Position numbers and translations under genes: made by a program. This document shows positions 9,410 through 16,318 of a DNA stretch of 24,927 nucleotides, piece by piece. The notes under the pieces are model-generated. The model was not told the DNA's origin. It made no database searches and was given only the letters and a program-made list of their open reading frames with translations. Within the stretch, counting starts at the first letter, position 1. The number at the start of each line of letters is the position of its first letter. Source of the stretch: a virus; the IMG/VR virus record IMGVR_UViG_3300020174_000069, positions 1 through 24,927 of that record, one strand, 5' to 3'.

Positions 9410-9634
9410 CTACTCCTTGCTCAGTGCGCGGTCGAGCTTGTCCTCGACTCTATGTAGAGCGTCAACTAAACGAGACATATCATCCCGCAAATCATTACGA
9501 GTCGCGTAGTCTTCCCTTGTACGTGAAAGAAGAACTTCTACTCGCTTAAGTTCTTTTGCTTGGCTTGAAAGAAAGTATGCCAAGCCGCCAATAACAAGGC
9601 CAACAAGAGTGTCTATGATCAATGCCATTTCCAT
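9410..9634 (-). CDS. Small membrane-anchored coiled-coil protein (possible holin-like or virion protein), 74 aa
   Basis: The start ATG overlaps the upstream adhesin stop as TAATG. One N-terminal membrane segment occupies residues about 4-23 (ALIIDTLVGLVIGGLAYFLS). After it comes a charged helix of about 45 residues rich in Lys, Arg, Glu and Asp with heptad-like Leu/Val spacing (ELKRVEVLLSRTRED, then MSRLVDALHRVEDKL). There is no lipobox and no second transmembrane helix. Such one-TM plus coiled-coil proteins sit next to tail-fibre genes in many phages and are sometimes called holins or spanin-like, but nothing here proves lysis function and no endolysin is visible in the window. It could equally be a small structural protein. 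Confidence 0.7.
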   Translation of the reverse strand: MEMALIIDTLVGLVIGGLAYFLSSQAKELKRVEVLLSRTREDYATRNDLRDDMSRLVDALHRVEDKLDRALSKE

Positions 9635-10827
9635 TAAGCAGTCCCGCCTTGGACAGTTCCGTTTTGGGTCAAGGTTACATTGCTTAAACCGCGGATGTAT
9701 TTTCCTGCTGCTGCACCACTAGACCCACCGCTGCCGCCAGAGCCGCCAGAACCATTGGTATGGTTGCCGTTGCCACCAGTGTTTCCTGTTGAACCAGTAT
9801 TTCCTGATGAACCAGACGCACCGTAGCCACCTCCAGCACCACCACTTCCGCCAGTTCCGCCCGTGCCACCAGAACCGGCATTCGTGCCACCTCCAGAGCC
9901 ACCAGAACCGCCACTACCAGAAGAGCCTGACGTAGCAGATTGGCCATAACCTTGACCTACACCACCAGAACCACCTGAACCGCCAGAGCCACCAGCGCCG
10001 CCATTATAATAGGTGTAATTTGTGATGAATTGATCTCTGTAAAGATCGTAGTAGTAATCGCCACCACCAGCATTTAACCAAACCGAAAAGCCAGAATTGT
10101 AACGATAACCACCACTATCCCACGGGACGGCTTGACCGCCTTGCGTGCCTGTTCTCAAACCAGAGCCTTGCCATCTAATTTGGTAGTGACCGTAATAAAT
10201 ATTGCGGTAGTAATGGTGCTGCCCCGTTGTGCCGGGGGATGATCTGTTACCTAAAGAAGTAGAGCTGGTCGATCCTTGGCCACCCGTGCCGCCAGAGCCA
10301 CCCGATCCTCCAGAGCCACCGCCTCCGCCACCAGCACGGATTGTACCATTGTTGATGAGAGTACAGGCAACGTCAGCTTGGAAAGCATCGCCGCCTGCGC
10401 TACCAGCAGCACCGCCAGCGCCACTCAATGTGCCGTTGTTGGTAATCGTCAATCCACCAGCCAAACCACTGTCTATCTGCAGTGCTTCTTGTGATGTACT
10501 GGTTGCACCCAGTTCTACGCCGCTGTTTACTACGATCTCTTTTGGGTAGTTAACACCGTAGTCTGATCCAAACACGGATGACGCATCCTGGTTGGTTGCG
10601 CCACTGCTATAGGTTTTACGAAAGCCTTTTGCAGTATCACGAAAGTCAACAAAGCGAATAGCACCAGAGGTAGGAACAGAGGCAGCAAGATTAGTAGAAC
10701 CATTGTTGCCTGCTTTTGCGAGGACATGGCTACCACCCCTGTACATTTCAGACATCTTAATCGTTCCAGAGCGTCCCCACTCTGTACGAATTTCTGACAT
10801 CCTTACTGTTCCACTGCCTATAGGCAT
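9634..10827 (-). CDS. Glycine-rich tail-fibre tip adhesin, copy A, 397 aa
   Basis: The start ATG at 10827 directly abuts the fibre stop (TAAATG). Residues 1-30 contain a short internal duplication (SGTVRMSEIRTEWG / SGTIKMSEMYRGG). Residues 60-165 form a conserved head with KGFRKTYSSGATNQDAS and two NNGT motifs (ITNNGTLSGAGG, LINNGTIRAGG). Gly/Ser arms at 166-185 and 276-375 flank a Tyr/Asn/Trp-rich central segment at 186-274. The end is NVTLTQNGTVQGGTA. The design (conserved head, glycine-rich repeats, variable loop region) is that of T-even gp38-type adhesins, whose Gly-rich motifs pack as a polyglycine-II sandwich. The homology is architectural and unproven. A near-identical frame occurs in copy B at 12081-13277. 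Likely role: receptor recognition at the tip of the fibre encoded just upstream. Confidence 0.8.
   Translation of the reverse strand: MPIGSGTVRMSEIRTEWGRSGTIKMSEMYRGGSHVLAKAGNNGSTNLAASVPTSGAIRFVDFRDTAKGFRKTYSSGATNQDASSVFGSDYGVNYPKEIVVNSGVELGATSTSQEALQIDSGLAGGLTITNNGTLSGAGGAAGSAGGDAFQADVACTLINNGTIRAGGGGGGSGGSGGSGGTGGQGSTSSTSLGNRSSPGTTGQHHYYRNIYYGHYQIRWQGSGLRTGTQGGQAVPWDSGGYRYNSGFSVWLNAGGGDYYYDLYRDQFITNYTYYNGGAGGSGGSGGSGGVGQGYGQSATSGSSGSGGSGGSGGGTNAGSGGTGGTGGSGGAGGGYGASGSSGNTGSTGNTGGNGNHTNGSGGSGGSGGSSGAAAGKYIRGLSNVTLTQNGTVQGGTA
10006..10272 (-). other. Variable central segment of adhesin A
   Basis: This encodes residues 186-274 of the glycine-rich protein. Compared with copy B, both flanks align nearly residue for residue (GGTGGQG before; Y-x-NGG-[AS]-GGSGGSGG after), while this stretch shows no convincing alignment. 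It is rich in Tyr, Asn, Arg, Trp and Gly (NIYYGHYQIRWQGSG, GGDYYYDLYRDQF). This composition suits a carbohydrate- or protein-binding surface. It is inferred to be the specificity-determining tip. Confidence 0.7.
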
Positions 10828-11712
10828 TTAGATTGCTCCGAATGCTGTTACGTCGTCCACAGTCACGATCTCGCCATCATCCGCGAACTTGATCTTGGCT
10901 GTGCCGTTGTACTTGAAAAGAAGATTGTTTCCTGAAAGCTCGATAGTCCACTTGCTCGAACCAAACTGGATTGCCTGACCATTTGTATCGAGTGTTCCGC
11001 CAAGTTGCGGTGTTGTATCGGTGACTATGTTAATCGCTGTGAGATCGACAGTAGCAAAGCTGAGTTGACCGCTGCCGTCTGTCTTCATGAACTGGCCCGC
11101 AGAACCATCAGCTTGGGGATGGCTCAACCCATCAATAACAACAGAGCCAGAGCCATTTGGAGTGATAGCAATATTACCATTGGAAGCAGAAACAATACTA
11201 TTTCCATTGACATCTAAGTTCCCACCTAGCTGAGGGCTTGTATCCGTAAGTATGTTGATTGCAGTAAGGTCTACTGTCGCGAAGCTAAGTTGACCGCTGC
11301 CGTCTGTCTTCATGAACTGACCGGCACTTCCGTCTGCTTGTGGATGTGACAGTCCGTCGATTACAACAGAGCCTGTGCCGTTTGGCGTGATAGCAATGTT
11401 TCCATCAGATGCAGAAACAACGCTGTTGCCGTTGACATCAAGATCGCCACCAAGCTGCGGTGTGCTGTCGCTAGAGACAATCTCTGCAGGCAGACGTGCT
11501 GCAGCCAGAGTTCCGGACGCTACGTTGGTTGCATTCAATGCTGTAAGGTTTGCGCCTGATGCGGCTGGCAATGTAGCCGGAAATCTTCCGTCAGGCAGTG
11601 TGCCTGATGTAAGAGCCGATGCATTGTCTGAAGCAGGTACGTTGTCAAGCGCACCCGACTTAACGTCGCCGCTGCTATCCAACAGGTCTGACATATTGCG
11701 AGTGCGTGTCAT
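10828..11712 (-). CDS. Short tail fibre protein with repeated domains, 294 aa
   Basis: The ATG at 11712 has GGAG 6 bases upstream and lies 3 bases after the chaperone stop. Residues 1-80 contain the SGTLPDGRFPATLPAASGAN type of repeat (with NVASGTLAAARLPAEI) common in trimeric phage fibres. Residues 83-157 and 158-232 are two copies of a 75-residue unit starting [ST]-[ST]-PQLGG-x-LDVNG and including GLSHPQADGSAGQFMKTDG. A third copy begins at 233 and turns into a C-terminal domain (FGSSKWTIELSGNNLLFKYNG ... VTAFGAI, written in parts) shared with the 1013-residue fibre. It is probably a second, shorter fibre or branch that carries adhesin A, encoded immediately downstream. Confidence 0.78.
   Translation of the reverse strand: MTRTRNMSDLLDSSGDVKSGALDNVPASDNASALTSGTLPDGRFPATLPAASGANLTALNATNVASGTLAAARLPAEIVSSDSTPQLGGDLDVNGNSVVSASDGNIAITPNGTGSVVIDGLSHPQADGSAGQFMKTDGSGQLSFATVDLTAINILTDTSPQLGGNLDVNGNSIVSASNGNIAITPNGSGSVVIDGLSHPQADGSAGQFMKTDGSGQLSFATVDLTAINIVTDTTPQLGGTLDTNGQAIQFGSSKWTIELSGNNLLFKYNGTAKIKFADDGEIVTVDDVTAFGAI
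10831..11016 (-). repeat. Shared fibre C-terminal domain, copy in short fibre
   Basis: Residues 233-294 of the short fibre align with residues 950-1013 of the large fibre: PQL, LDTNG-x-AI, FGSSKW-x-IEL, LLFKYNGT and VTAFG are common to both, with a two-residue gap. In both genes this domain ends the protein directly before a glycine-rich adhesin gene. Confidence 0.9.
11017..11466 (-). repeat. Two tandem 225-bp units (75 residues each) in short fibre
   Basis: Unit 1 spans 11242-11466 and unit 2 spans 11017-11241. At protein level they differ at only a few positions (for example D/N after LGG, V/I in NSVVSA, T/S in PNGTGS). At DNA level there are many third-base differences (gtcgattacaaca versus atcaataacaaca on the plus strand). 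The duplication is therefore old enough to have accumulated synonymous change while the protein stayed conserved. Confidence 0.9.
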
Positions 11713-11715
11713 GGC

Positions 11716-12081
11716 TTACTCCGGCTTGGGATTGTCGGTCTTAATCTGAGCGACCTTTGCCACCCAAGCATCAAGTCCGTTCTCTGTTATAAATTCGATC
11801 TGTGTCGCAACCGATCCGTAGGCTTCTTCCCGCTTCTGCAAATACTCAGGACGTGGATCGACATATTCTTCTGCTGGTTTCTCTGCAGCCGTTCTCGTTG
11901 CACCGGCAGATAAGAAAGATGGTGCTGTTCCACTAAGAAGGTGCGGGGGCGTCATACGATGAACCATGTCATCGAGGTCCGCTTCCGTCATGTCTGCGGT
12001 CAAAGGGATGTACGTCCATGTATCATCTGGAAATACGACCTTAGCCAAGCCATTATTAATTTCTGGGATACTATATTCCAT
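11716..12081 (-). CDS. Putative tail fibre assembly chaperone (XkdW-like C-terminus), 121 aa
   Basis: The start ATG overlaps the stop of adhesin B (TAATG). Residues 1-40 form a small domain (MEYSIPEINNGLAKVVFPDD, TWTYIPLTADMTEADLD). A variable Ala/Thr/Pro linker follows at about 43-72. The C-terminus at 73-120 contains RPEYLQKREEAYGSVATQIE and ends in IKTDNPKP. The pattern R-x-x-AY-x-S-x-x-x-Q-[IL] ... I-K-x-x-x-P is what I know from short XkdW-like or tail-assembly proteins encoded beside phage fibres. Its position between the two fibre/adhesin pairs supports a role in folding or attaching one or both fibres. The role is inferred. Confidence 0.7.
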   Translation of the reverse strand: MEYSIPEINNGLAKVVFPDDTWTYIPLTADMTEADLDDMVHRMTPPHLLSGTAPSFLSAGATRTAAEKPAEEYVDPRPEYLQKREEAYGSVATQIEFITENGLDAWVAKVAQIKTDNPKPE

Positions 12082-13277
12082 TATGCTGTGCCTCCCTGCA
12101 CAGTACCGTTTTGCGTAAGAGTGACATTAGAAAAGCCACGAATATAATTACCAGCAGAACCACCGCCCGAACCGCCAGAGCCACCAGAGCCACCTGAACC
12201 GTTACTGTGGTTGCCGTTACCGCCTGTGTTGCCTGTAGAGCCTGTGTTGCCCGTTGAACCGGACGCACCATAGCCGCCGCCAGATCCGCCTGTTCCTCCA
12301 GAGCCGCCAGTGCCGCCTGACCCGGCGTTTGTGCCACCACCAGAACCGCCAGAGCCAGATGAACCACCGCTTCCTGATGCAGCAGATTGTCCGTATCCTT
12401 GGCCTACACCGCCATTTCCACCAGAGCCGCCCGAACCGCCTGAGCCACCGTTTGTGTAATAAGTATTACTGACGGGTGTTCTGCGACGAATTGAGTAAAG
12501 GTAGATGGGATAAGCTGGTATTACTGCTTGCACTGTACCGATCTGATACTCATTCCCGCCATTAGTAATTGAAGTAGTACCAGTTGAAGTGTTGGCTAGA
12601 TAACCATCCCAGTACCACGCCCGATTTGTGTACTGCTGAACACTTCGATCACTAGCACCACCGCCAGTGTATTGATATGAACTCCACGAACTCCAGCCAC
12701 TGGTGGAGTAAGTGCCTTGACCGCCCGTGCCACCAGTGCCACCGCTGCCGCCAGCACCTCCCCCGCCACCACCGGCTCTAATCGTGCCGTTGTTGATTAA
12801 AGTGCAGGACACATTCGCTTCGAAAGCATCACCACCCGTGCCGCCATTCGCTGAACCGCCAGCACCAGAAAGTGTGCCGTTGTTGGTAATGGTCAGACCA
12901 CCGGATAGACCACTGTCGATCTGGAGTGCTTCTTGTGATGTACTGGTTGCACCGAGTTCGACACCGCTGTTGATGACGATTTCTTTGGGATAGTCGACAC
13001 CGTAATCCGAGCCAAAGACAGCCGATGCGTCTTGGTTGGTTGCACCGCTGCTGTACGTCTTACGAAAGCCTTTGGCTTGCGAGTAGAAGTCGTCGAAGTC
13101 GATTGCGCCGCTGGTTGGTACTGATGCTGCGAGGTTGGTGGCGGTGTTGTTGCCAGCTTTAGCGCGTATGTGGCTGCCACCACGATACAGGTCGCCGATT
13201 GAAATTGCAGATGAGCCACCTACAAATTCAGTCCGAAAGTCGGCAAGACTTACTGCGCCTGATGCTGCAATTGCCAT
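12081..13277 (-). CDS. Glycine-rich tail-fibre tip adhesin, copy B, 398 aa
   Basis: The start ATG overlaps the large-fibre stop (TAATG). The architecture equals copy A: an N-terminal ~35 residues with ISIGDLYRGGS, a conserved head at 60-165 (KGFRKTYSSGATNQDAS, then YPKEIVINSGVELGATSTSQ), NNGT motifs, a Gly arm at 169-188, a variable segment at 189-276, a long Gly/Ser/Thr/Asn arm at 277-378 (NTGSTGNTGGNGNHSNGSGG) and the identical final 15 residues NVTLTQNGTVQGGTA. Outside the variable centre, most residues match copy A, although many codons differ. It is probably the tip adhesin of the 1013-residue fibre encoded directly upstream. A gp38-like polyglycine-II fold is inferred from composition and gene order only. 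Confidence 0.8.
   Translation of the reverse strand: MAIAASGAVSLADFRTEFVGGSSAISIGDLYRGGSHIRAKAGNNTATNLAASVPTSGAIDFDDFYSQAKGFRKTYSSGATNQDASAVFGSDYGVDYPKEIVINSGVELGATSTSQEALQIDSGLSGGLTITNNGTLSGAGGSANGGTGGDAFEANVSCTLINNGTIRAGGGGGGAGGSGGTGGTGGQGTYSTSGWSSWSSYQYTGGGASDRSVQQYTNRAWYWDGYLANTSTGTTSITNGGNEYQIGTVQAVIPAYPIYLYSIRRRTPVSNTYYTNGGSGGSGGSGGNGGVGQGYGQSAASGSGGSSGSGGSGGGTNAGSGGTGGSGGTGGSGGGYGASGSTGNTGSTGNTGGNGNHSNGSGGSGGSGGSGGGSAGNYIRGFSNVTLTQNGTVQGGTA
12450..12713 (-). other. Variable central segment of adhesin B
   Basis: This encodes residues 189-276, flanked by the same glycine arms as in copy A but unrelated in sequence. It contains Trp/Tyr/Ser-rich blocks (SGWSSWSSYQYTGGG, NRAWYWDGYLANT) and an RRR cluster. 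Length is similar to the copy A segment (about 88 versus 89 residues), which suggests substitution of one binding module for another, not simple length drift. Confidence 0.7.
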
Positions 13278-16200
13278 TATGGTGACCCGAAAGCTGTGAC
13301 GTTGTTTGCGCTAGTAACTGCACCATTCGATGCCAGTTTGAAGACCGTCGTGCCGTTGTATTTAAACAGCAGGTCGTTATCGCCAGTGTCGAGTTCGATG
13401 CTCCACTTTGAAGATCCGAAAAGTATGGCGTTGCCGTTAGTGTCAAGGTTGGCAGCAAGCTGCGGACTGCTATCGTCCGTAAGGTTCTGCATAGCACTGT
13501 CGGCTGTTGAACCTTGTGCAGCCGTAGCATAGTCTGACGAATCAAACGCTTTGACTTGCGCAAGGTTAGTCACCTCACTGTCCATCAGCGCACCAGCGGC
13601 TGTCACGTTTGCAGTGTCAGTCACATCTGCTGATGCCTCGATAGCGTTCAGTTTGGTGTGGTCGGCGTCAGTGAAGACATTGCTGTCCGATGCACTCTCG
13701 ACCAGCGTCCTGATTTCGGCTGCTGTCTGATCAGCAGTGGCAGAAGCCTCGATGCCGTCCATCTTTGTTTTGTCTGCAGCAGACATCAGGCCAGCAGAAC
13801 CTGTAGTGGCATTAGATGGCTGCGCCACCGTTGCATAAGTAAGATTGCCTGAACCGTCAGTCTGTAAGAACTGACCGTTTGTTCCGTTTGATCCGGGCAG
13901 AGTAAAGTTTACATTACCAGAGTAGTCGGCATGGGCAGGGGCTTTGATTGTAACTTTGTGGGCGTTGCTTACCTCGCAATACATATCGATGTATGCGGGG
14001 CTACCTGTACCCGTCCGCATCGAGATAGCACCGTCAGAGACGCTCACACCGTCACTAGAACCGTCACCACCAAGATGTACAGTCCGTCCCTGATCTGACG
14101 GGACATAGTTTGTACCGTTATAGGTCAGTACATGACCTGTCAGATGCCCTGTTAGATCGACGTTGTTAGCGTCACCGACACTGAAGCTGGCAAGTTGAAA
14201 TGTACCATAGGCAACCATGTCCACGATATCGCCACTTGCTGCGGCGGTCGCGAGAGTGACGCTTGTACCATTGGTAGCTGTGAAGTCGCTGTCTGGGTTG
14301 AGTTTAATACCGTTGTGATAGACATCAATAAATCCTGCATCGTAAGCAATCGGGAATACGGTGGTTGAGCCTGTGTACGTACCTTCGTTTGTCCCGACAG
14401 CGTATGTCTGTCGTTGGGATGTCCCGTTGACTGTTGATCCAGCAGCAACCCAGCCGCCCGATCCGTAGACCTTCATAGTGTCTGTGGTCGAATCAAAGTA
14501 GAGACTGCCAATTACGAGAGCATCACCGTCATTATCGACTGTCGGAGCTGAACTCTTTGCCCCAAGGAAACGATCATCGAATAGGTCGTATGCAGCGGCA
14601 GCAGAAGTGGCGCTTGATGCAGCATTTGTTTCAGAAGTCGCCGCATTTGTAGCGCTTGTTGCAGCGTTGGTTTCGCTAGTTGCCGCAGCGGTAGCTGATG
14701 AAGCCGCCGCCGTATTACTTGCGTTGGTTGTATCAACGTAACCTTTAGTTGCTACTTCGCTTGAAGCGCTGGGCGTAGGAAGACCAGTGATGGTGTTGCT
14801 TCCCATCACTATGCCGCCGGTCATAGTGCCACCAGCAAGTGGCAGCATAGTGTCTGCATATGCCTTGGTAGAAGCATCTGTGCCAGCAGTAGGTGTTCCA
14901 AGACCTGTGATCTTGCTGCTGCCCATCGCAATAGCACCAGTCATCGTACCACCGGCTAGTGGCAGTTTGGTGGCTATGCTGTTGGTGATCGTAGTGCTGA
15001 AGTTAGCGTCGTCGCCAATCGCGGCAGCAAGTTCGTTGAGTGTATCGAGTGCGCCAGGTGCTGAATCTACGAGGCTAGCTAGCTCTGTATCCACGTAGTT
15101 CTTGGTTGCTGCGTCCTGCGCATTTGTTGGATCTACTACGTTGGTCAGAGCGGTAGCTGTAAAGTTGGCAGTTCCGTTTACGGTCAGGTTGTTTAGCGTG
15201 GTAGTTCCTGACGAAGCAGTAACATTACCCGTAAGATCACCTGTCACATCGCCGGTAATATCACCTGTAATGTTGCCTGTCAGATTGCCAGTCACATTAC
15301 CTGTTAAGTCGCCTGTAATACCCGCATTTGCACTCAGGGTAGTAAAGCTACCTGCCGCACGAGTAGAACCACCAATAACCATATTATCGGCTGTACCACC
15401 GTTGATGTCAGCCGAAGTAAGAGTGGCCTGACCGGATGTTGTCAGCGTAGTAAATGCACCAGTAGAAGCGGAAGCTGCACCGATAGCTGTCCCATCGATA
15501 GCGCCACCATTGATATCGGCAGCACCAATTACCACCGAGCCTGTACCGGCTGGCGTTATTGTAATGCTTCCGTCTGTATTTGTTGCGGAGATTGTATTTG
15601 CGTCAAGCTTCAGATTGTCGACGCGCAGATCAGTAACAGCAGAATTCGTACCGATGGTTACGCCATCAATAGTCCCACCATTAATGTCAGCAGTGGTAAC
15701 AGTGCCAAGATTACTGACAGTGCCGCCACTAAAACTGATTGTTCCATTGGCTGTAAGATTCGTAAAGTCTGCACCAGCGCGTGAACTGCCGCCGATGTCT
15801 GTGCCGTCAATCGTACCTGCATTGATGTCGGCAGTAGTTGCTACAAGGCTGCTGGCTGTTACAGCACCGGCAGATGAGCCGCCTATAGTCACACCATCGA
15901 TTGTGCCACCGTTGATGTCTGCTGTATCTGCAACCAGACTATCAATATTAGCAGTGCCATCTAGATGAAGGTCTTTGAATTGCTTAGTGGTAGAACCCAG
16001 ATCGATGTCATCGTCTGTAGTAGGTTCGATAACACCATCTTTGATGATTACCTGTTCAACTGGATTGCTGCTTACCTCAACGTAGAATTCAATCTCGTTG
16101 TTGGTTGTGTCTATAACAACCTTATTGTTAGGTGCAGTTTCTCCCGCATCACCTATCAAACCGATGACCGGACCTTCAGCGGTAGATCCATCGTGCTTGT

Positions 16201-16318
16201 GTCCAGTAGTATTGCTGAATGCATCTACGACTTGGTTCAACTCAGAATTGATAGGCGCTGCCCTGACGGTTGCGCCAGCCGTAATATCTGCTGAACTTTG
16301 TCTGGTGTAACCTGCCAT
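13277..16318 (-). CDS. Large tail fibre protein, 1013 aa
   Basis: The start ATG overlaps the nozzle gene stop (TAATG). The N-terminal ~125 residues look like a virion-attachment domain (HKHDGSTAEGPVIGLIGDAG, PTTDDDIDLGSTTKQFKDL), a pattern I recall from marine podovirus fibres. It is followed by five ADING-type repeats (133-330), a GDxTGN tetrapeptide run (336-367), two PLAGGTMTG blocks with ATK-x-Y-x-DT (about 451-530), an Ala/Ser/Thr-rich likely trimeric coiled coil (534-575), beta-rich domains (580-720), two KMDGIEASAT/KLNAIEASAD blocks before the end, and a C-terminal domain (950-1013) shared with the short fibre. No intramolecular chaperone or endosialidase domain is evident. It likely binds adhesin B, encoded next. 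Confidence 0.85.
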   Translation of the reverse strand: MAGYTRQSSADITAGATVRAAPINSELNQVVDAFSNTTGHKHDGSTAEGPVIGLIGDAGETAPNNKVVIDTTNNEIEFYVEVSSNPVEQVIIKDGVIEPTTDDDIDLGSTTKQFKDLHLDGTANIDSLVADTADINGGTIDGVTIGGSSAGAVTASSLVATTADINAGTIDGTDIGGSSRAGADFTNLTANGTISFSGGTVSNLGTVTTADINGGTIDGVTIGTNSAVTDLRVDNLKLDANTISATNTDGSITITPAGTGSVVIGAADINGGAIDGTAIGAASASTGAFTTLTTSGQATLTSADINGGTADNMVIGGSTRAAGSFTTLSANAGITGDLTGNVTGNLTGNITGDITGDVTGDLTGNVTASSGTTTLNNLTVNGTANFTATALTNVVDPTNAQDAATKNYVDTELASLVDSAPGALDTLNELAAAIGDDANFSTTITNSIATKLPLAGGTMTGAIAMGSSKITGLGTPTAGTDASTKAYADTMLPLAGGTMTGGIVMGSNTITGLPTPSASSEVATKGYVDTTNASNTAAASSATAAATSETNAATSATNAATSETNAASSATSAAAAYDLFDDRFLGAKSSAPTVDNDGDALVIGSLYFDSTTDTMKVYGSGGWVAAGSTVNGTSQRQTYAVGTNEGTYTGSTTVFPIAYDAGFIDVYHNGIKLNPDSDFTATNGTSVTLATAAASGDIVDMVAYGTFQLASFSVGDANNVDLTGHLTGHVLTYNGTNYVPSDQGRTVHLGGDGSSDGVSVSDGAISMRTGTGSPAYIDMYCEVSNAHKVTIKAPAHADYSGNVNFTLPGSNGTNGQFLQTDGSGNLTYATVAQPSNATTGSAGLMSAADKTKMDGIEASATADQTAAEIRTLVESASDSNVFTDADHTKLNAIEASADVTDTANVTAAGALMDSEVTNLAQVKAFDSSDYATAAQGSTADSAMQNLTDDSSPQLAANLDTNGNAILFGSSKWSIELDTGDNDLLFKYNGTTVFKLASNGAVTSANNVTAFGSP
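13280..13471 (-). repeat. Shared fibre C-terminal domain, copy in large fibre
   Basis: Residues 950-1013 correspond to residues 233-294 of the short fibre (FGSSKWSIEL, LLFKYNGTTVFK, NNVTAFGSP). Because both copies are followed by a glycine-rich adhesin gene, the domain is a candidate docking site for the adhesin head. This is inference. Confidence 0.9.
15218..15313 (-). repeat. Tetrapeptide G-[DN]-[LIV]-T run, 8 units
   Basis: Residues 336-367 consist of eight consecutive units of Gly-Asp/Asn-Leu/Val/Ile-Thr. The plus strand shows the matching 12-base pattern (variants of gtcacatcgccg, aatatcacctgt). This kind of short repeat is common in fibre shafts and is prone to slippage-driven length change. 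Confidence 0.85.
15329..15922 (-). repeat. Five ADING-type repeats in the large fibre shaft
   Basis: The motif A-D-I-N-[GA]-G-[TA]-[IA]-D occurs at residues 133, 163, 210, 267 and 303, each followed by a G-x-x-IG step and a variable spacer ending in a short hydrophobic strand (TASSL, ADFTNL, LRVDNL, AFTTL, SFTTL). The spacing is irregular (30, 47, 57, 36 residues), so the units are modular and not strict tandem copies. Confidence 0.85.

Follow-up and report, generated by a model that had tools for sequence, protein, structure and literature searches.

Described fibre-tip adhesins and the locus studied here

In T-even phages, the distal fibre protein gp37 carries the adhesin gp38 at its tip. 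We analyzed a stretch of viral DNA of 24,927 bases (below, the window), which is the complete IMG/VR entry IMGVR_UViG_3300020174_000069 and in which two fibre genes (F1 and F2) are each followed by a gene for a glycine-rich protein (A1 and A2), with a gene for a small protein (C) between the two units. This region of an HMO-2011-type podovirus probably encodes two fibre-tip assemblies, each made of a fibre that ends in a common C-terminal domain, here called FC, and a gp38-type adhesin with a swappable tip. HMO-2011-type phages have abundant marine bacteria (SAR116, Roseobacter) as hosts, and to our knowledge little has been reported on how their host range changes.

The T-even pairs (T2, S16 and PP01; PF05268; PDB 6F45 and 9v85) place a monomeric glycine-rich gp38 on trimeric gp37. 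In S16, the monomer grips the trimer with three helices, each of which puts a Trp into one of three equivalent pockets, and gp38 consists, in order, of head, capping helix, beta-helix, short and long glycine extensions and last strands (PMC6851490). The window shares with this system the succession of fibre gene and adhesin gene, the order of elements in the adhesin, three-fold head elements (putatively for docking), a hypervariable candidate receptor part and the motif GGxGGxAxxNxxGxxLxIxNxGxIxxGGGGGG. It differs in that the window adhesins lie below detection by the Pfam GP38 profile, that their heads are built from SGxIxFxDLR repeats and belong to another sequence family than the three Trp helices of gp38, and that they carry one large inserted tip domain where gp38 has five short loops. 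Moreover, the fibres have FC at their ends in place of a gp37 tip and S74 chaperone domain, the adhesin gene is followed by a separate small gene, and two units are present in one podovirus.

Outside the T-even phages, gp38-type adhesins are known from haloarchaeal myoviruses (PMC8651126) and marine metaviromic islands (PMC3909814), and the T-even relatives Mm5 and EcS1 have two of them in tandem. The haloarchaeal hafunaviruses resemble the window in having a gp38-like glycine-rich adhesin, a hypervariable locus, which has been tied to differences in host range among viruses of one species, and an adjoining small gene; they differ in being archaeal myoviruses, the likeness is one of description only, and the accessible part of the report mentions no duplicate fibre/adhesin pair (PMC8651126). 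There are also podoviruses that carry two receptor-binding proteins. In KP32, G7C and K1-5, for which anchor-branch or adapter models exist, the first receptor protein is attached by a conserved N-terminus and the second by a short conserved N-terminal peptide, as might be the case here, but these proteins are tailspikes or depolymerases joined through T4gp10-like domains (PMC6872550), and Pfam and PHROG scans found no such domain in F1. Recognition modules are also reported to cross phage families (PMC10579305). The Alteromonas A5/V22 modules, like the one proposed here, combine portable host recognition with a downstream chaperone in morphologically different phages; as far as the accessible parts of the reports go, they differ in having no gp38-like adhesin (PMC10579305, PMC7289586). 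Finally, HMO-2011 and CRP-1 share the structural gene order and the F1 N-terminus with the window, but have neither the adhesin nor the gene for C; in HMO-2011, a run of small fibre/tail genes occupies the slot instead.

An earlier account of this DNA, made without database searches (the sequence-only reading), considered a duplicated gp37/gp38-like system in a podovirus unusual. Given the gp38-type adhesins elsewhere, their tandem arrangement in Mm5 and EcS1 and the podoviruses with two receptor-binding proteins, this cannot be upheld in general terms. What appears to be new is the combination, namely a module of FC, three-repeat head and plug-in tip in HMO-2011-type podoviruses, present in two copies on different anchors and with direct evidence for tip exchange within a species. 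An open-literature search returned no paper with both "HMO-2011" and "adhesin".

Gene map of the fibre region

By portal identity and gene order, the source virus is an HMO-2011-type podovirus. Its portal is 70-73% identical to those of Puniceispirillum phage HMO-2011 and Roseobacter phage CRP-1, and the portal, coat and tail genes are homologous to theirs in full synteny. The minus strand carries all recognised long open reading frames of the window, beginning with portal, small protein, 583-residue protein, scaffold-like 291-residue protein, coat protein, SU10-type adaptor and 514-residue tail protein, followed by F1, A1, C, F2, A2 and proteins of 74, 649, 80, 171, 627 and 1128 residues. The five genes from F1 to A2 abut or overlap by 1 nucleotide, and a longer contig identical to the window (G001, 36.3 kb) contains all five. 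The two fibre genes, and the reading frames of the two glycine-rich proteins directly behind them, are as first described. The features are as follows (HMM, hidden Markov model; pLDDT, predicted local distance difference test).

13277-16318, minus strand: F1, long fibre, 1013 residues; PHROG tail-fibre matches, N-terminus as in gp43 of HMO-2011 and gp43 of CRP-1
15944-16318, minus strand: N-terminal anchor module of F1 (MAGYTRQSS..., about residues 1-125); N-terminus common to loci L015, L067, L140, HMO-2011 and CRP-1
13280-13483, minus strand: FC domain of F1 (residues 946-1013), proposed adhesin dock; HMM E-value 5e-32, end ...VTAFGSP
12081-13277, minus strand: A1, putative gp38-like glycine-rich tip adhesin, 398 residues; alignment, profile and fold comparison
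13074-13277, minus strand: A1 head (residues 1-68), proposed docking head; pseudo-repeats SGAVSLADFRTEF, SSAISIGDLYRGG and SGAIDFDDFYSQA, leave-one-out repeat test
12453-12710, minus strand: A1 exchangeable tip (residues 190-275); rich in aromatic residues and Arg, modelled as a beta domain with pLDDT mostly 85-88
11716-12081, minus strand: C, small protein of 121 residues, proposed fibre/adhesin assembly chaperone; position after adhesin genes
10828-11712, minus strand: F2, short fibre, 294 residues; N-terminal tag, two 75-residue spacer repeats and FC
11632-11712, minus strand: N-terminal tag of F2, MTRTRNMSDLLDSSGDVKSGALDNVPA; common to mini-fibre genes of 62-95 residues
10979-11428, minus strand: spacer repeats of F2, two direct copies of 225 nucleotides, 75% identical; repeat comparison
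10831-11028, minus strand: FC domain of F2 (residues 229-294); HMM E-value 9e-34, end ...VTAFGAI
9634-10827, minus strand: A2, putative gp38-like glycine-rich tip adhesin, 397 residues; alignment with A1
10630-10827, minus strand: A2 head (residues 1-66), three pseudo-repeats as in the A1 head; repeat test
10017-10273, minus strand: A2 exchangeable tip; replaced outright in conspecific locus L005 between flanks of 96-100% DNA identity

Relationship of A1 and A2 to gp38

Profile comparison and predicted fold both indicate that A1 and A2 are related to T-even gp38, as gp38-like polyglycine adhesins of a broad superfamily. With hhalign, 54 adhesins aligned to 10 T-even gp38s with an E-value of 5.5e-6 (score 48, probability 86%), and all 100 shuffled controls scored below the real alignment (maximum 22.6 in 50 column shuffles and 26.9 in 50 six-column block shuffles). 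A global alignment of the two profiles reached a probability of 94% over 239 columns. The Pfam GP38 profile (PF05268), which detected the positive controls T2, S16 and PP01, matched neither the window nor 15 relatives at E≤10; among the 54 relatives, three were matched weakly (best E-value 0.52), short of the curated cut-off. The NCBIfam scan provided no route to gp38, and profiles of the adhesins, of FC and of C found only linkers and chance matches among PDB sequences.

An AlphaFold2 model of A1 had a mean pLDDT of 72, with values above 90 in the arms and below 50 in the distal glycine part. In a fold search of the PDB, the sole credible match of this model was the receptor-binding domain of PP01 gp38 (E-value 1.3e-3, probability 1.00; next match 0.7); the template modelling score was low due to the poorly modelled glycine part. 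The top match in a viral fold library (E-value 1.3e-22) was a Rhizobium phage "Gp38 domain" protein. The elements of A1-type adhesins also follow each other in the S16 gp38 order. Together with the order of fibre and adhesin genes, these comparisons bear out the gp38-like logic that the sequence-only reading had proposed.

The adhesin tip is exchanged between scaffolds

A1 and A2 are 70% identical over their full length (heads 61%, arms 89%, glycine-rich C-terminal parts 87%, last 22 residues 91%). Identity drops to 23% in residues 190-275, a sharply delimited segment of 85 residues without match. The earlier statement that the two proteins match nearly throughout is therefore correct for heads and arms, but not for this segment. 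Column entropy across the family is 2.7-3.1 bits in residues 196-270, versus about 1 elsewhere. The segment is a single tip domain, mostly of 55-140 residues, inserted in a beta-helix and glycine-rich scaffold. The arms of A1 and A2 are 72-76% identical at the nucleotide level, and only 34% of the four-fold degenerate sites agree between the two genes, which is saturation, versus 90% between A2 and its orthologue in L005. Hence, the pair is old or was acquired separately, and selection has kept the proteins alike.

We compared the window with 188 de-duplicated related viral loci (numbered L), 92 of which contain a total of 97 adhesin genes. Close relatives with 97-100% identical scaffolds carry unrelated tips, and near-identical tips are found on distant scaffolds. 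In L005, from the same species as the window, identity to the window is 95-98% for C, F2 and A2, but the A2 tip is replaced, with sharp edges at about 10,273 and 10,017 of the window. L183 and L181 have heads and arms of 100% DNA identity and tips of 35% amino acid identity; the L181 tip shares 82% identity with the L178 tip (arms 79% only), and the L183 tip 83% with the L140 tip. In L077 and L193, tips are 86% and arms 54% identical. In L015, most of F1 agrees with the window at 97% identity, yet the distal part of F1 with FC, and A1, are replaced by another type. The two tips of the window are unlike each other, and so are the two tips of L005.

These mismatches imply that whole tips move between scaffolds, including those of phages with different fibre anchors. 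Phages swap the tip as a cassette, presumably through recombination within its conserved flanks; the tip most likely decides receptor specificity. A concrete rule can be offered: docking head and scaffold are kept, and the tip is exchanged. A diversity-generating retroelement is an unlikely source of the variation, as whole segments are replaced and not bases substituted; no search was aimed at a reverse transcriptase.

Fibre ends, docking heads and gene order

The homology of the F1 and F2 C-termini, placed by the sequence-only reading at residues 950-1013 and 233-294, is real (BLASTP E-value 4e-22 for the pair), and an iterated HMM extended it slightly, to the FC borders listed above. The N-termini of the two fibres are unrelated. 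F1 starts with the sequence that is usual in its group, whereas F2 starts with a 27-residue tag known from mini-fibre genes that encode hardly more than tag and FC; an HMM of these tags matches F2 alone in the window (E-value 4e-13). In further loci, FC and adhesin sit on still other N-termini, and we therefore regard FC plus adhesin, from this distribution, as a portable end-piece. Because its tag differs from the F1 N-terminus, F2 is probably attached at a second site or branch, which fits the plan of two-receptor podoviruses with a second protein held by a short conserved N-terminal peptide (PMC6872550).

Two side observations concern the fibres. The direct repeats in F2 reflect a duplication within the gene, which makes the fibre longer. 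By eye, FC could plausibly correspond to the gp37 tip that precedes the S74 chaperone domain, but profile comparison gave a probability of 7% and leaves this identification unsupported.

The adhesin head has a three-part consensus, SGAVSFSDLRTEF, SGAISFSDLYRGG and SGAIDFADFRSTA. In a leave-one-out test, each repeat had to be picked out from about 300 windows of its own protein with a profile of the remaining two; it ranked first in 69/69, 68/74 and 66/74 proteins. By analogy with S16, the three pseudo-repeats may serve the three-fold docking of a monomer on a trimeric fibre end.

Gene order is conserved across the 97 adhesin genes. The adhesin directly follows an FC-ended gene in 67 cases, mostly with a 1-nucleotide overlap, and is followed by a relative of the gene for C in 66 (within 100 nucleotides in 44 of these). 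Recurrence of the order FC, adhesin, small gene in dozens of viral contigs cannot be due to chance. The sequence-only reading had proposed a search of related genomes for one-unit and two-unit versions, and both are found. The two-unit order (fibre, adhesin, C, fibre, adhesin) is found in the species of the window (window, L003, L004, L005 and, in part, L051) and separately in L049; one-unit relatives with the same slot between the 514-residue tail protein and the 649-residue protein include L069, L176, L022, L185 and L193. FC-ended genes (ending in the TAFG motif) that do not adjoin an adhesin are mostly followed by a 73-residue mini-FC gene and an adhesin, or by another glycine-rich tip protein. 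The former arrangement, a long FC-ended fibre, the mini gene with F2-type tag and FC, and then the adhesin, is seen in L064, L065, L089, L188, L194, L195 and L196.

Small protein C was confidently modelled as an alpha/beta fold (pLDDT 92), and neither Pfam nor NCBIfam matched it. The gene lies between the two units, as the sequence-only reading stated, but belongs to no recognised chaperone family or fold; we use the chaperone label for its position, from which it most likely helps to assemble fibre, adhesin or both.

Variants of the cassette were also noted. In L105 and L106, a different glycine-rich protein (28-29% Gly) comes after the FC-ended fibre, and its N-terminus resembles a divergent form of the three-part head. 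L142, L150, L152 and L157 have adhesin-type heads on bodies of 238-241 residues, directly after an FC-type gene and probably without the full glycine scaffold. In L010 (979-2187 and 2220-3467), two adhesin genes lie in direct tandem and are sisters in the tree described below; the L010/L011 pair represents a genuine tandem duplication restricted to the adhesin, with no fibre between the copies.

In isolated phages, tblastn with the full adhesin found no match at 1e-5. With the non-glycine part, the head alone was matched, in Vibrio, Xanthomonas, Stenotrophomonas and Burkholderia phages; in three of four loci examined, it begins immediately downstream of a fibre or tail-region gene, and no FC was detected upstream of it in these loci. 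The three-repeat head begins small proteins in L273 (3001-3471), L275 (3001-3690) and L276 (3001-3501), from Stenotrophomonas, Burkholderia and Xanthomonas phages, which offer a handy entry for laboratory tests. No adhesin relatives were found in bacterial and archaeal genomes.

Proposed assembly and points against it

We propose that the gp38-type adhesin caps the trimeric FC end of the fibre as a monomer, via the three pseudo-repeats of its head. The adhesin body, a predicted beta-helix with glycine-rich scaffold, would hold the single inserted tip, which would bind a bacterial receptor, and C may assist assembly of fibre, adhesin or both. F1 would be anchored to the tail by the usual N-terminus of the group and F2 by its own tag at a second site or branch. 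If one virion displays both pairs, it would have two independently evolving tips, giving two specificities or two contacts.

Several results weigh against this proposal. The polyglycine II (PGII) part of the A1 model is poorly predicted, the head, apart from its three-fold plan, does not resemble the attachment domain of gp38 in sequence, profile comparison found no significant similarity between FC and the gp37 tip, and the confident model of C has no fold match in the PDB. L043 has fibre and adhesin without C after the adhesin, and some loci have two FC-ended genes before one adhesin, so that FC is not one-to-one with adhesins. Moreover, FC and head distances do not co-vary in a mirror-tree test (rho 0.08, Mantel p 0.11), i.e., there is no signal of interface coevolution. 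The missing correlation argues against a finely matched lock-and-key; a generic interface with free mixing, or no interface at all, would each possibly explain it.

In a wider reading, which we put forward tentatively and would rate at somewhat under even odds, a self-contained fibre-tip module of FC dock, three-repeat head, gp38-like scaffold with plug-in tip and small assembly protein circulates among several kinds of marine phages on many anchors. The window phage would then mount two of these at different attachment points and re-tip two receptor specificities independently.

Display, origin and identity of the two units

The two pairs might instead alternate, with one per virion, or one unit might be a decoy or a reservoir for tip recombination. 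The conserved arms of A1 and A2 could indeed mediate tip exchange, and several loci combine two FC genes with one adhesin. We nevertheless consider alternation unlikely, since both units are intact, the scaffolds are under strong purifying constraint (87-91% amino acid identity with saturated silent sites), F2 has an N-terminal tag of its own, and the two tips differ from each other both in the window and in L005.

The sequence-only reading took the two units for a tandem duplication. A recent duplication of one fibre/adhesin unit, with subsequent divergence of the tip under selection, would account for the equal gene order and the overall similarity of the adhesins, and has a precedent in the L010/L011 sisters (support 97/91). 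In a tree of 66 adhesin scaffolds, built with the tip excluded, a grouping of the four window-species adhesins in a single clade was not rejected (approximately unbiased test, p 0.205). In the same tree, however, A1 pairs with the A1 of L005 (99/87) and A2 with the A2 of L005 (100/100), and the next neighbours of A2 are adhesins of one-unit relatives (83/84). The saturated silent sites of A1 and A2, compared with those of the A2 orthologues, and the unrelated N-termini of F1 and F2 are equally at odds with a recent event, which we regard as quite improbable; an ancient duplication of the unit is possible.

A different origin is suggested by L140, the closest differing relative (coat protein 87%), in which F1, adhesin and C are followed by a 91-residue gene with the F2 tag, but without FC or adhesin. 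From this arrangement, the second unit of the window would have arisen when FC and A2 were added to an existing short gene with the tag.

That the glycine-rich proteins are other virion or non-virion proteins merely located beside fibres is very unlikely: the head occurs alone on other bodies in isolated phages, but the gp38 profile and fold relationship, the tight coupling to FC-ended genes across the anchors of many phage types, and the hypervariability and exchange of the tip, which receptor binders would be expected to show, all speak for adhesins.

The reading as two fibre-tip assemblies would extend the T-even gp38 principle to marine podoviruses and predicts monomer-on-trimer docking via three repeats. 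FC, head and tip could serve as markers for candidate receptor-binding tips in metagenomes, where such proteins are annotated as hypothetical only.

Neighbouring regions of the window

Positions 1-1410 of the window contain no minus-strand open reading frame of at least 60 residues; only short plus-strand frames are listed there. At the matching spot, the structural block of HMO-2011 ends and the adjoining genes run in the opposite direction. The 74-residue protein behind A2 (9410-9634) has a hydrophobic N-terminal stretch and a coiled-coil-like tail, has relatives in L193 (62%) and contig G011 (39%), and is possibly lysis-related.

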